From positions 1-33,683 of the IMG/VR virus record IMGVR_UViG_3300044638_003806: DNA of 33,683 bases; one strand, given 5' to 3'. The stretch comes from a virus. Made by a program: the position numbers and the translations under genes. Positions 10,724-33,683 of this stretch are shown here, piece by piece. The notes beneath the pieces are model-generated. The model saw only the letters and a list, made by a program, of their open reading frames with translations. It was not told the origin of the DNA and made no database searches. Position 1 is the first letter of the stretch. Every line of letters begins with the position of its first letter.

Positions 10724-11233
10724 ATGGAAGTTCAAGAAGAAAAGACAATTCATTTTGGAGACATCCTAGAGTATGTGCCAAATGATCGTAAAGAGAGATT
10801 CATTCACGATTTGATTCTCTATGTACCTCACTTAAAAGAAGAGGCTGACAAGTTTAGCCATGTGATTCACAATGTTGCTATAGGCACTAATATGAGAAAC
10901 TATATAGACCTCATGAAAGATTTGGCAATGAAAATATACAACGCATCAGGTGAAGAGAACAGAAAGAGAGAGAATGTAGTCTATAGACAATTAGTTTTTT
11001 GGATGATGTATAAAACACTTCCTGTAACATTAGGTGGGATTGGTAGCGAATTTAAAAACAAAAACCACGCAACGGTCCTTTACGGAATCAAAACATTTGA
11101 GGATACAATACTAACCTCTTGGAAGGACAGAATGCTAGTACAATACTTTGTTGAGAAAATGGAAGAGCTTGGCTACCCACAACCTAGACAAGCATACAGA
11201 GACCTTTACTTTAAACTTAAAATCGAGAAATAA
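10724..11233 (+). CDS. DnaA domain IV-like DNA-binding protein
   Basis: A 169-residue protein. Residues 81-130 match the DNA-binding domain of DnaA: VVYRQLVFWMMYKTLP, then IGSEFKNKNHATVLYG (106-121). This parallels the DnaA signature in which IG-x-x-F-x-x-[RK]-[DN]-H-x-TV contacts the DnaA box. There is no AAA+ ATPase domain. The N-terminal 75 residues are helical and unfamiliar. Such a protein could recognise the phage origin or compete with host DnaA for its boxes. It lies just after the primase-helicase and one unknown gene, with an A-rich leader, so a replication role is well supported by context. Confidence 0.8.
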   Translation: MEVQEEKTIHFGDILEYVPNDRKERFIHDLILYVPHLKEEADKFSHVIHNVAIGTNMRNYIDLMKDLAMKIYNASGEENRKRENVVYRQLVFWMMYKTLPVTLGGIGSEFKNKNHATVLYGIKTFEDTILTSWKDRMLVQYFVEKMEELGYPQPRQAYRDLYFKLKIEK

Positions 11234-19842: not shown

Positions 19843-19911
19843 TTTTACCTTTTTGAATTTTTACTATTGAAGTAAGTTGCTTTTTGTAACAAAAACATAG
19901 GTAAAATTGTT

Positions 19912-19990
19912 ACCACACTATAGTATGGTATAGCAGTCATTAACCCCAAAATTTGACTGTAAGAACCCTATTTTAATACTAAAGTGTGGT
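19912..19990. repeat. Nested inverted repeats in a promoter gap
   Basis: ACCACACTATAGTA (19912-19925) and TACTAAAGTGTGGT (19977-19990) are inverted copies with one mismatch, 51 bases apart. Inside them CAGTCA (about 19934-19939) pairs with TGACTG (about 19954-19959). The left arm is itself part of a near-perfect palindrome, ACCACACTA/TAGTATGGT. The whole lies just before a promoter-like box at 20012. An operator that loops DNA, or a cruciform site, would fit. Confidence 0.7.
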
Positions 19991-20019
19991 TTTTCCGTCA
20001 CAATTTTAGCATACTTTTG
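19990..20019 (+). promoter_or_regulatory. Possible promoter after the inverted repeat
   Basis: TACTTTTG (20012-20019) fits TAnnTTTG. A T run at 19990-19994 lies at about the -33 distance, giving TTTT rather than TTTG. Transcription would start near 20024 and enter a region with no gene until 20291. Confidence 0.45.
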
Positions 20020-20023
20020 TGAC

Positions 20024-20165
20024 AAACAAAGGACAGTAAACCTCTTCCACTGGCAAATGTTTGATCGTGGAAAATAATCCCCGGAATCAGCCCTTTAGTG
20101 GAAAATAATCAACATCAATTCGGAATATAGCCGAGTTACTGCATGAATTTTTCCAAAAAACCTCA
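20024..20165 (+). ncRNA. Possible untranslated RNA with 13-base direct repeat
   Basis: This stretch has no credible gene. GTGGAAAATAATC occurs at 20067-20079 and again at 20098-20110. TTCCAC (20045-20050) can pair with the GTGGAA of either copy, giving two alternative hairpins. A small TCGG/CCGA hairpin follows near 20120-20135. A promoter-like box lies just upstream. No terminator ends it before the next promoter at 20236, so it could equally be a protein-binding region. Confidence 0.35.
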
Positions 20166-20235
20166 TGTCAAGTTTTCTGTGCCATTTAGTTGACACCGAC
20201 AAGATGGTTAGTAGATGTAACCAACTCATTTATTT

Positions 20236-20266
20236 TTTGCAGAGTAAACCAAGCTTTGTATATTTG
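20236..20266 (+). promoter_or_regulatory. Strong Bacteroidota-type promoter
   Basis: TTTG (20236-20239), 19 bases, TATATTTG (20259-20266): an exact consensus match. It lies 24 bases before the ATG at 20291 and drives the MAIKKT gene pair, which ends at a strong terminator. This makes a compact, probably highly expressed unit. Confidence 0.85.
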
Positions 20267-20290
20267 TGTATTATTAATAACAAAAAAACA

Positions 20291-20455
20291 ATGGCAATTA
20301 AGAAAACAACCGGTATGGGTACAACACCCAAGAAGCCAACTCAAAAACCTAACCCATACACCACAAAACCAAGTGTAAGCAAAACAACATACACAAGAAG
20401 CGGTGTTACCTTTGTAAAGAATCCTGACGGAACATTCTCAAAAAAGACTAAATAA
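20291..20455 (+). CDS. MAIKKT basic protein 1, 54 aa
   Basis: It reads MAIKKTTGMGTTPKKPTQKP and ends GVTFVKNPDGTFSKKTK. It is rich in Lys, Thr and Pro and likely disordered. The first six residues are identical to those of the next gene. It has its own exact-consensus promoter and an A-rich leader (AATAACAAAAAAACA). Strong expression and high positive charge suggest a structural or DNA-binding protein. The terminal FVKNPDGTFSK pattern is seen in small phage proteins. Confidence 0.75.
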   Translation: MAIKKTTGMGTTPKKPTQKPNPYTTKPSVSKTTYTRSGVTFVKNPDGTFSKKTK

Positions 20456-23583: not shown

Positions 23584-24183
23584 ATGAAAAGCACAATGAA
23601 ATTAGAGAAATCCATCTTCATTTTTGATGGTCACAACGGAACTTATATCCCACAATTGTTTGCAGAGGAGATGATACATCCTTCGTGCCTATATGAATTC
23701 AATACGGAGAGAGGAGATGCCTTGTTAACTGAGATGTTGAATGACCTAATCCAAGGGAGAGACAACGAATACTATTGGGACAATTGGAATACTATCATCT
23801 CTCACTACAACGAGATGCGTAAAATTGGAACGAACGAATTGTTCTACCTAACGCAAACTGAGGATGGTGACCTTTGGTTAGTTCACGAGGATGAACTTGA
23901 GGAATGGAATGAGTACGAAAGCGGAGAGCAGAAAGACTACAACCAATTCGTGCTTGTTGTAAGCGAAGTAGAAGAGCAATTAGGTAATTACTATTGCTAC
24001 ATCGAAGATTGGAAAGGAGATGTTGTTTGGGAATGTGACGATGAGGGGGTTGCCGATTTTAAATCTGACGGTACTCTGGTCAACCTTCCGCACGAAGACC
24101 TTGACCTTTTACTCACCTACCTACGCTCTATAGATAGACTTGGAGCAGAATCAAAATTAAGACTTAGTAATTCAATCCTTTAA
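23584..24183 (+). CDS. Strongly acidic hypothetical protein, 199 aa
   Basis: It begins MKSTMKLEKSIFIFDGHNGT, followed by YIPQLFAEEM, a D-G-H-N-G-x-Y-I-P-Q-x-F-A pattern I associate with small Bacteroidota phage and plasmid proteins. Asp and Glu greatly outnumber Lys and Arg, with stretches such as HEDELEEWNEYESGEQKD and WECDDEGVADF. Many Trp and Tyr residues suggest a compact fold. Acidic, aromatic-rich proteins from phages often mimic DNA (Ocr, Arn, Gam); that is only a possibility here. Confidence 0.72.
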   Translation: MKSTMKLEKSIFIFDGHNGTYIPQLFAEEMIHPSCLYEFNTERGDALLTEMLNDLIQGRDNEYYWDNWNTIISHYNEMRKIGTNELFYLTQTEDGDLWLVHEDELEEWNEYESGEQKDYNQFVLVVSEVEEQLGNYYCYIEDWKGDVVWECDDEGVADFKSDGTLVNLPHEDLDLLLTYLRSIDRLGAESKLRLSNSIL

Positions 24184-24197
24184 TCCCTTTTAAGAAA

Positions 24198-24473
24198 ATG
24201 AAGACAACACATCAAGACAAAGTAATGAATGCCGTTAACGATATTTGTTACGACATCAATCGCAGAATTTTGCACATGGATTATCAGCAAGAGAAATCAA
24301 TTCGAGAATATCTTGAGAACGAATTCGACAACTATCAGCGAGACTGCGAACAATTTATGTTATGCGATTTCGAGATTCGAGACATTGCTCACATTCTAGA
24401 TATAAACACAACTTGCATACTAGACATTTTAGTGGATCTCGGATTTGCAGCTTACGAAGAGGAAGAGAACTAA
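24198..24473 (+). CDS. Acidic helical protein, 91 aa
   Basis: I count about 21 Asp/Glu against 8 Lys/Arg. It starts MKTTHQDKVMNAVNDICYDI and is probably all-helical. It has a likely helix-turn-helix-like part near FEIRDIAHILDINTTCILDI and an E-E-E-E end. Five cysteines are spread along the chain. If the helix-turn-helix is real it could be a regulator; the negative charge argues for protein rather than DNA binding. Confidence 0.7.
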   Translation: MKTTHQDKVMNAVNDICYDINRRILHMDYQQEKSIREYLENEFDNYQRDCEQFMLCDFEIRDIAHILDINTTCILDILVDLGFAAYEEEEN

Positions 24474-24509
24474 TCAAAATCAAAATCAATAATTAAAACT
24501 TAAAGACAA

Positions 24510-25391
24510 GTGAAAAACACAAATTTAAATTGGGGGATTCCTGGCGAAGACCAAACGGTGAACGGATACACTAACATTGAAACCTTCACAATGATTTCAC
24601 ACATCCACAATAACCAAGATTGGATAGAAGATGCATTCGACAACATCAGAAGGTATAACAATCCAAACAACTTGAAAGCAAATTTTCAAGAGGAGATATT
24701 TAACGGAAGAGCGTTGTCGGATATATTTGGTCTAATGTCCTTCGATAGAATCAATTTTGAAGAGATATTCGAGAGCATGAAAGAGATGATGCCGAAAGAG
24801 GAGAAGTTCACCATTGGTGACTATCTGATGATTGTGGACGGAGAAGGACTGAAGTTCGGATGGAAAGGTAGAATCTTCCAACACGATTGTACTTATAGAG
24901 AAGCATTCGCAAGAGCAGAAGAGATTTGTGTTGAGGATTGTGCTTGTGGTAGAGTATACAACGTGAATCAGAATCGTTTCGTGAAGGTAACACACCAATG
25001 GAGATTCGTTGAGGAATCAGATAGATGGATATCTGAATGGAAAAACGAGAACTATGAGATTGTCGGAATCAATTACTTCCAAGGTCACGATTCCTTCGAT
25101 GACCTTCAAGATGACTTCTTCTTGCCTGATCTGAAACTTACTGAAAAAGTATTGGCGAAGCATATGCCTACTGACGATGCTATTTGGTCAGTCTTCCACG
25201 AGGAGAATATCAGCAAGGAAGAATTGATTGAGAGACTCTATTTGGCTCACGCACAAGCAACATTCTTGTTTGACCAATTGATTGAACTATGTAATGGTGA
25301 AGATAACAAAATGGTCATGGAACTATTTTACTCGCACAACATCAAGATACTTACTGACCTAACAACTGACGAATACAAATTTGACAAGTAA
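24510..25391 (+). CDS. DUF7249-like acidic protein, 293 aa (GTG start)
   Basis: The largest product of the island begins at a GTG, with TTAAAGAC just before it. Residues 18-40 read NGYTNIETFTMISHIHNN, resembling the N-G-x-x-N-x-E-T-W pattern of DUF7249-type phage and plasmid proteins. The middle has FTIGDYLMIVDGEGLKFGWK and a Cys-containing EEICVEDCACGRVYNV. The C-terminal third is helical and acidic. It may be a two-domain protein. Function unknown. The gene after it starts one base beyond the stop. Confidence 0.72.
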   Translation: MKNTNLNWGIPGEDQTVNGYTNIETFTMISHIHNNQDWIEDAFDNIRRYNNPNNLKANFQEEIFNGRALSDIFGLMSFDRINFEEIFESMKEMMPKEEKFTIGDYLMIVDGEGLKFGWKGRIFQHDCTYREAFARAEEICVEDCACGRVYNVNQNRFVKVTHQWRFVEESDRWISEWKNENYEIVGINYFQGHDSFDDLQDDFFLPDLKLTEKVLAKHMPTDDAIWSVFHEENISKEELIERLYLAHAQATFLFDQLIELCNGEDNKMVMELFYSHNIKILTDLTTDEYKFDK

Positions 25392-32644: not shown

Positions 32645-32684
32645 AAAGGCGGTTACTTCAAACGTGGAGTGCCGCCTTTTCCGT
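32645..32684. terminator. Bidirectional terminator between convergent genes
   Basis: AAAGGCGG (32645-32652) pairs with CCGCCTTT (32672-32679) around a 19-base loop, followed by TCCGTTTT. The loop contains the stop codon of the leftward HNH gene (32658). It stops transcription from rusA and probably also from the opposite side. Confidence 0.75.
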
Positions 32685-33305
32685 TTTATGTCTAATCCCT
32701 TCATAAAGACTACCTTTAGAGCAGTTTTCACTTTCCCATAAAGGTTGCAAGTTGTCTAAAGCAAAAGCTTTTTTCACCTCTTCAGTATTATCCAAGTCAA
32801 ACAATACTAATGGTTTTATATGATCTATATGCCACCCATTTCTCCCGTAATTACCCCAATTCATTTCAGGTAAAAATTTAGATTCCAAATGTTTCACTAA
32901 TTCTAATGATGTATAACCTAATAAATCAAATGTTTTGAATTTTTTGTTTTTTATATTTGTAGAAATCATAGACCTCAATCTACATGACATTAATCTTGCT
33001 GGATTTTGTTTTACCTTCTCACTATACTTCTTATCAGATTTAGCCTTTATTTTTTTATACCTCTCAGATTTTTTGTATAATTTTAATTTCTCTTTATTTA
33101 CTTCCCTATAAACTTTACTTAGTTTACTTTTTTTTTCTTTATTATTTTCATTCCATTCTTTTAGATATTCTTTTCTAGAAGGCTCTTTTTTCCTACATTC
33201 TTTACACTTGTGATGCCTGCCATCTTTATGAGTTTTATATAAACCAAAACTATCTAAAGGTAAAAAAACCTTACAGGTGCAACATTTTTTAGTAGGTATC
33301 ATCAT
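32658..33305 (-). CDS. HNH endonuclease
   Basis: A 215-residue protein. A zinc-binding part at the N-terminus has C-C-x-C (8-11) and CKEC (34-37). A very Lys-rich helical linker (residues 45-105) follows. The HNH nuclease core begins near MNWGNYGRNGWHIDHIKPL (148-166) and continues with the LDNLQPLW motif (183-190). The H-I-D-H pair and the Asn of L-D-N-L-Q are catalytic or metal-binding. Such genes often act as homing endonucleases. The coding sequence is much more AT-rich than the structural and replication genes, supporting recent acquisition. Its ATG overlaps the stop of the gene before it. Confidence 0.88.
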   Translation of the reverse strand: MMIPTKKCCTCKVFLPLDSFGLYKTHKDGRHHKCKECRKKEPSRKEYLKEWNENNKEKKSKLSKVYREVNKEKLKLYKKSERYKKIKAKSDKKYSEKVKQNPARLMSCRLRSMISTNIKNKKFKTFDLLGYTSLELVKHLESKFLPEMNWGNYGRNGWHIDHIKPLVLFDLDNTEEVKKAFALDNLQPLWESENCSKGSLYEGIRHKTEKAALHV

Positions 33306-33592
33306 TTTTTTGTAGAAGATCCGTCACGACCATTACGTTTTCTATTCGCTGACTGACCTTCGCTAACAACCTTACCAACTTTAGTATGGCTCATATCCTT
33401 ACCATCCTTATTTCCGTAAGTTCCAGCCTTACGATTCTCCTTGTTCAGTTCTGAACGATACTTACGTCTCTCGGGAGTAGAGTGATATTCTTTGTTGTAA
33501 GCGTCTTTTTTAGCCTTCGCCTTTGGATTGGACTGAAAGTATTTGGCACTCTCTGACTTGCCTTTTTTAATACCTGCTAATGAATTTCTCAT
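33302..33592 (-). CDS. Basic small phage protein (MRNSLAGIKKGKS type), 96 aa
   Basis: It begins MRNSLAGIKKGKSESAKYF, then NPKAKAKKDAYNKEYHSTPE, and has a Lys/Arg/Gly-rich tail ending GRDGSSTKK. The K-x-Y-H-S-T-P-E-R-R-K-Y-R pattern is common in phages of Bacteroidota. It is very basic and probably virion-associated. The start ATG (33592) lies only four bases after a -7 box, so the mRNA is likely leaderless or almost so. It overlaps the HNH gene by four bases. Confidence 0.78.
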   Translation of the reverse strand: MRNSLAGIKKGKSESAKYFQSNPKAKAKKDAYNKEYHSTPERRKYRSELNKENRKAGTYGNKDGKDMSHTKVGKVVSEGQSANRKRNGRDGSSTKK

Positions 33593-33620
33593 GTAACAAA
33601 TATAACACTAAATTTGTTAC
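33593..33620. promoter_or_regulatory. Palindromic operator containing two divergent promoters
   Basis: GTAACAAAT (33593-33601) and ATTTGTTAC (33612-33620) are a perfect 9-bp inverted repeat, 10 bases apart. Each arm supplies part of a -7 box: TATATTTG leftward (33597-33604) and TAAATTTG rightward (33609-33616). The start codons at 33592 and 33622 lie four and five bases beyond the boxes, so both mRNAs should be leaderless. A dimeric regulator could bind the palindrome and shut off both genes. Confidence 0.65.
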
Positions 33621-33621
33621 G

Positions 33622-33683
33622 ATGATTATACATGAAATACAACAAGTGCTTTGGGTGGAGACGGAGTTAGGTGATGGAATTGC
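33622..33683 (+). CDS. Start of a plus-strand gene (truncated by window)
   Basis: The frame from ATG 33622 stays open to the window end and reads MIIHEIQQVLWVETELGDGI. The V-L-W-V-x-T-x-L-G-x-G pattern reminds me of small beta-rich proteins in Bacteroidota phages that begin with a strand and a G-D-G or G-E-G turn. Only 20 residues are visible, so the product cannot be named. A -7 box lies five bases before the ATG. Confidence 0.55.
   Translation, partial: MIIHEIQQVLWVETELGDGI

Follow-up and report, generated by a model that had tools for sequence, protein, structure and literature searches.

A conserved palindrome between two divergent phage genes resembles operators of Bacteroidota AbiEi (DUF6088) antitoxins

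Results and Discussion

Two divergent genes flank a palindromic region with two predicted promoters

The window, that is the whole stretch of DNA that was analysed (33,683 nucleotides), is an entire virus record of 33.7 kb that carries phage terminase, portal, primase-helicase and RecT-like genes, and its terminase is a distant relative of those of Flavobacterium, Cellulophaga, Tenacibaculum and Maribacter phages. Close to the end of the record two genes diverge from a short palindrome, which we refer to as site A:

32658–33305, minus strand: endonuclease-VII-like gene, with a 4 bp overlap with the end of the left gene
33302–33592, minus strand: left gene, encoding a 96-aa basic protein (phrog_6437)
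33593–33620, no strand: site A, a 28 bp palindrome of the GTAAC class with a 4 bp centre, candidate AbiEi-type operator
33597–33604, minus strand: −7 box TATATTTG of the predicted leftward promoter, 4 nt (TTAC) from the ATG at 33592
33609–33616, plus strand: −7 box TAAATTTG of the predicted rightward promoter, 5 nt (TTACG) from the ATG at 33622
33622–33683, plus strand: right gene, truncated by the end of the window and 69 aa long in relatives (MIIHEIQQVLWVETELGEG...)

The endonuclease-VII-like gene and the left gene are probably co-transcribed, and the former is missing at that place in the related records L002 and G001, so it is probably a mobile gene. Relatives of the left gene occur in Syn5 (gp50) and in the elemo phages of Flavobacterium sp. 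BAL314; the phrog_6437 family is common to Bacteroidota phages and cyanophages, and many of its members have a leaderless-looking start. An in-frame ATG further upstream (33580) was rejected as the start of the right gene because it is lost in relatives, making the ATG at 33622 the better choice. Neither gene flanking site A resembles a repressor or the regulator proposed below, and neither a repressor nor an integrase, as might accompany the operator of a lysogeny repressor, was recognised by eye among the proteins of G001. A DNA search of annotated phages for the site A locus gave zero matches, and no match to the left protein was confirmed in bacterial genomes.

An earlier note on this DNA had described a perfect 9 bp inverted repeat containing a TAnnTTTG box on each strand, with start codons four and five bases past the boxes, and all of these features were found at the positions listed above. 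The arms of the repeat are GTAACAAAT (33593–33601) and ATTTGTTAC (33612–33620); they extend to 12 bp at the cost of one mismatch, and with its flanks the site spans 30 bp (TGTAACAAATATAACACTAAATTTGTTACG). Both boxes match the sigma-ABfr promoters of Bacteroidota (TAnnTTTG), and a start at the ATG would agree in spacing with transcription start site mapping in Flavobacterium johnsoniae, where a gap of 4–5 nt separating the −7 box from the start served to define probable promoters and where it is normal for the −33 element to be weak or absent (PMC6847099). Transcripts from both promoters are predicted to begin at the ATG or no more than one base away from it, so that site A would differ from other sigma-ABfr promoters in that two divergent promoters overlap and both start at the start codons. 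Leaderless mRNAs are scarce in the phylum Bacteroidota, at about 4–6% (PMC7366714, PMC9723704). The earlier proposal of two divergent leaderless promoters is supported by the spacing and its retention in relatives, the transcription starts themselves being predictions from sequence.

TAnnTTTG by itself shows no enrichment across the window (41 occurrences against 36 expected), and hence the boxes are informative solely through their position. In many distant relatives that have the left gene without the palindrome, TAnnTTTG or a near variant ends about 4 nt before the ATG, which suggests that the leaderless-looking layout is a trait of the left gene that is separate from the palindrome; at other genes of these phages the box mostly lies at least 14 nt before the ATG. 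In phages that have no right gene (L063, L067, L083 and others) the left half-site GTAA[C/T] persists but overlaps a stop codon.

The palindrome is strongly conserved. The exact 28-mer of site A was found in 14 other IMG/VR contigs, each time between the same two genes, and the full palindrome was kept in all 31 scored copies of the divergent gene pair, so the loss in close relatives that the earlier note had regarded as decisive against its reading did not occur. In 29 of these copies the site has GTAAC arms and is 28 bp long, with two different centres; in the other two (L037 and L038) it has GTCAC arms and is 27 bp long, both arms having been altered while the two boxes and the ATG distances of 4 and 5 nt are unchanged. 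Boxes and distances are in fact constant across all 31 copies. The motif GTnACAA-N13/14-TTGTnAC is present three times in the window and in none of 60 first-order Markov shuffles, and its occurrence is therefore above chance.

Related palindromes in an origin-like noncoding region

The earlier note had suggested looking for the same palindrome elsewhere in the genome, and two further sites were found, separated by 83 bp and both located, away from promoter pairs, within some 450 bp of noncoding DNA:

19843–20291, no strand: noncoding region with sites B and C and DnaA-box-like repeats (GTGGAAAATAATC), candidate replication origin
19886–19913, no strand: site B, GTAACAAAAACATAGGTAAAATTGTTAC, of the same palindrome family and without an intact TAnnTTTG box
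19997–20023, no strand: site C, GTCACAATTTTAGCATACTTTTGTGAC, of the GTCAC class, with one TAnnTTTG box (20012–20019, plus strand)

Sites B and C also vary in length by a base. Relatives with longer records usually have site A plus B or C, and some add 29 bp palindromes with GTCGC arms (G002, G004 and G010) or GTCCC arms (G009), so that the phage family holds sites of all four arm classes recognised below and each larger relative carries multiple sites, in many cases belonging to two or three classes. Most sites in the noncoding region, including site B, have no intact TAnnTTTG box and yet keep their arms, which suggests that it is the arms rather than the promoter that are conserved.

A location of this kind raises the question of a structural or recombination element, such as a cruciform, a 28 bp recombination core or a replication element. 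The 28 bp length together with a 6 bp centre is reminiscent of dif-like cores, and sites B and C do lie in an origin-like region. We nevertheless regard such an element as extremely improbable: the length of the centre is variable, site B would form a poor hairpin (7 bp arms around a 14 nt loop), no integrase was recognised by eye among the proteins of G001, and the bacterial counterpart of the motif is a promoter. A dif-like recombinase core was rejected on account of the variable centre and the lack of a recognised integrase.

The equivalents of the origin-like region in G003, G009 and G010 likewise contain several palindromes along with DnaA-box-like repeats, which read TGTGGATAA in G003. 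A protein whose C-terminus resembles DnaA domain IV (HGTVLHGIKMFEN, read by eye) is encoded beside replication genes at 24026–24535 of G001 and, judging from gene order, at 10724–11233 of the window.

The motif precedes DUF6088-AbiEii operons in Bacteroidota

In bacteria the motif takes a 29 bp form, TGT[A/C][A/C/G]CAAATWTA-N3-TAWATTTG..ACA, for which ten exact matches were found in 84,980 genomes. Eight of the ten lie directly upstream of a gene encoding a DUF6088 protein (Pfam E-values of about 1e-52 to 1e-58); PADLOC assigns DUF6088 to AbiEi, AbiEii is encoded immediately downstream, as in a type IV toxin-antitoxin operon, and AbiEii/DUF6088 pairs have been listed as toxin-antitoxin systems (PMC12654330). 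A pattern search of 395 Bacteroidota genomes allowing up to two mismatches gave six matches, all six before DUF6088, and none for a reversed control. Conversely, among 53 DUF6088 entries drawn from Bacteroidota genomes, a few of which are the same locus fetched twice, 48 have an upstream palindrome, which is 29 bp long in all but one (47/48) and contains TAHHTTTG in 44, again with a few duplicates, in the layout seen at site A. Altogether 43 non-redundant DUF6088 genes have a 29 bp palindrome, with arms of GTCAC, GTAAC, GTCCC or GTCGC. A NikR-like geometry (6-N16-6) had also been considered for the palindrome and was dropped after the link to DUF6088 emerged.

This arrangement is much like that of characterised AbiE systems. 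Streptococcus agalactiae AbiEi represses its own promoter via inverted repeats with a 3 bp centre (PMC3985639, PMC7319586), and the inner repeat of that operator, ...CCACAAATAT-N3-AAAATTGTAGTG..., closely resembles the DUF6088 operator (PMC3985639). In AbiE autoregulation, as seen with S. agalactiae AbiEi and Mycobacterium tuberculosis Rv2827c/MenA4, a winged helix-turn-helix (HTH) antitoxin acts at inverted repeats that overlap its own promoter. Known AbiE sites are 23 bp repeats at their own operon, whereas site A lies in phage DNA before unrelated genes, in a divergent arrangement and with no antitoxin gene found.

The half-sites of site A fit GT[A/C][A/C/G]CA followed by an AT-rich inner part, and a −7 box TA[AT]ATTTG lies within the palindrome, as in the AbiEi/DUF6088 operators. 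No DUF6088-AbiEii operon lies behind it, and at 30 bp with flanks it departs from the bacterial rule of 29 bp with a 3 bp centre; at this locus only L037 and L038 have the 29 bp form, flanks again included. Since it is one base longer than the rule, we term site A AbiEi-operator-like rather than a proven member of the class. The 30 bp GTAAC version was absent, at up to two mismatches, from 399 genomes of the family of Flavobacterium difficile (Flavobacteriaceae level).

Arm class tracks the putative recognition helix of DUF6088

An AlphaFold2 model of DUF6088 is a winged HTH in which helix 32–44 would be the recognition helix and residues 49–57 the wing. Its best fold match in the PDB is the antitoxin Rv2827c, at modest significance (E 0.004, probability 0.99), while a PDB sequence search gave zero matches. 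Over the 43 non-redundant proteins the columns most informative of arm class are residues 36, 37, 57, 53 and 40, and no other region of the protein follows arm class as closely as residues 36, 37 and 40 (in the helix) together with 53 and 57 (in the wing). The GTAAC class, to which DUF6088 of Flavobacterium difficile (locus L331) belongs, goes with R36, L/V37, H40 and Q53, the GTCCC class with K36 and K37, and the GTCGC class with R53; about nine changes of arm class are placed on a tree built from the rest of the protein. The link between class and residues is partly confounded by descent. These comparisons make DUF6088 the likely binder of the palindromes. If this is true, the result provides a testable recognition code for DUF6088, relating helix residues to the arm that they read, and would allow the AbiE systems that a phage has met to be predicted.

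The motif is widespread in unrelated viruses

A first scan of viral sequences, in which two boxes had to face each other while the arms were only loosely constrained, recovered many unrelated contigs in which the flanks were largely GT[A/C]...[T/G]AC and the centre mostly 3 bp. The full 29 bp pattern (TGTMACAAATWTANNNTAWATTTGTKACA) gave 96 matches in IMG/VR compared with none for the reversed pattern, and a pattern with GTCSC arms gave nine viral matches. Sites from these contigs and from isolates, which include a perfect 29 bp GTCAC site at 46,055–46,083 of Tenacibaculum phage pT24 and a 29 bp site within a tRNA cluster of Maribacter phage Panino, group into 19 independent flank clusters, and most viral sites other than site A are at gene or tRNA promoters. 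Orthologous phage sites switch class on both arms together (GTCAC or GTCGC at one locus; GTAAC, GTCAC or GTCGC at another), and many phage sites are GTAAC/GTCAC hybrids. The double arm changes had raised the possibility of pure stem pairing, which was rejected because the hybrid arms and the promoter context in bacteria favour a protein site.

The largest viral cluster, comprising loci of the L166 type (47 contigs), has the operator upstream of genes for gp32-like single-stranded-DNA-binding proteins, as judged by eye, and this operator is often a GTAAC/GTCAC hybrid.

If there were no regulator at all, site A would be two back-to-back sigma-A promoters and its symmetry a by-product of similar −7 boxes and start regions. 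TAnnTTTGTG and similar strings are indeed repeated at other promoters of the phage. The retention of arms at site B and at most noncoding sites that have no intact box, the joint change of both arms among GTAAC, GTCAC and GTCGC, and the count of 96 against none in the reversed control all speak for a bound protein, and we consider a by-product very improbable.

That protein is probably encoded by the host, since neither PF19570 nor PF13338 was found in this phage or in 25 other phage records (26 in all). Likewise, no DUF6088 gene was found beside any of the 96 exact viral matches. We think it unlikely that some other phage- or host-encoded protein binds the motif, its likeness to abiE operators then reflecting shared or convergent specificity. 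Such a binder would suit the length of site A, which differs from that of the bacterial abiE operators, and the podovirus relative MW202828 has a 28 bp site next to a gene annotated as a repressor. The product of that gene has no homologue in this phage family and was rejected as a common regulator. No PF19570 or PF13338 protein marks a phage-encoded binder in the 26 records, and convergence would hardly account for hosts and phages sharing all four arm classes.

A tRNA gene lies within 100 bp of the site in 3 of the 19 viral clusters (P ~0.015), and this proximity is no more than suggestive of a link to AbiEii-family toxins. Relatives of the AbiEii toxin act on the acceptor stems of tRNAs, which they modify, with a preference for serine tRNAs in the case of MenT3 (PMC10435456), and it has been proposed that tRNAs encoded by phages serve as decoys against such toxins (PMC7725324).

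AbiEi-type operators directly adjoin phage tRNA genes at L158, L161, L217, L257, L287 and L408; the tRNAs include Arg-TCT, 7 bp past the site, and clusters with Ile, Phe and Ser.

A probable host-type operator over predicted phage promoters

We consider it reasonably probable, from the comparisons above, that site A is a host-type AbiEi (DUF6088) operator that overlaps two divergent leaderless sigma-A promoters, which would be repressed and later freed by titration. With a GTAAC-class DUF6088 dimer from the host sitting across the two −7 boxes, both genes would be shut off; as the phage DNA multiplied, site A and the noncoding sites would soak up the repressor and the two genes would switch on, sites without a box acting as decoys. 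Titration would at the same time loosen repression of the host abiE operon. We infer autoregulation by DUF6088, binding of the host protein at the phage site, repression and titration alike. The earlier proposal of one symmetrical operator over both boxes is supported, the palindrome being kept in every scored copy, with its repressor a prediction; unlike in that proposal, the operator would not be private to the phage, given its likeness to host AbiEi/DUF6088 operators and the 19 independent viral contexts. Doubts concern the length mismatch of site A, the GTAAC/GTCAC hybrids and a benefit to the phage that is not obvious.

A rather unlikely alternative is that the sites serve mainly as a sponge for host AbiEi, leaving the abiE operon, antitoxin included, derepressed or AbiEi occupied, with control of the genes at site A secondary. 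Site B and the sites with GTCGC or GTCCC arms, which are noncoding and have perfect arms and no intact −7 box, would fit this role, as would the several sites of each larger relative, which often belong to two or three arm classes. Against it, a genome contains only a handful of sites, most of the other viral sites are located at promoters of genes or tRNAs, and all 31 copies of site A retain the two boxes and their distances from the ATGs.

The exact bacterial form in many unrelated viruses that have no abiE genes suggests that these viruses have borrowed a host defence switch. It is conceivable, though somewhat doubtful, that Bacteroidota phages have repeatedly taken up AbiE operators of several classes as sensors and decoys, the host antitoxin switching phage genes, some of them for tRNAs that could compensate for a tRNA-modifying toxin of the AbiEii family, and extra sites titrating the antitoxin during infection. 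If true, this would be a new way for phages to meet an abortive-infection system, in which a DNA control site is copied rather than the toxin blocked; our searches of the open-access literature yielded no previous description of AbiE operators in phage genomes. Phage promoters under host repressors exist, for example in LexA-controlled phage genes. The present case would be alike in placing phage genes under the operator of a host regulator, and unlike in that an antitoxin of a phage-defence system is the putative regulator and that several specificity classes of site exist.

Among bacterial loci, the abiE promoter of L270 (2738–2826) contains two tandem palindromes of different class, GTCGC and GTAAC. 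Genes for more distant AbiEi-like proteins are preceded by other palindromes, namely TGTCCAG..CTGGACA (L339, L357, L361, L362 and L368), TGTCAAG..CTTGACA (L363) and GTCAGAAAT..ATTTCTGAC (L355 and L356), which would be further operator classes.
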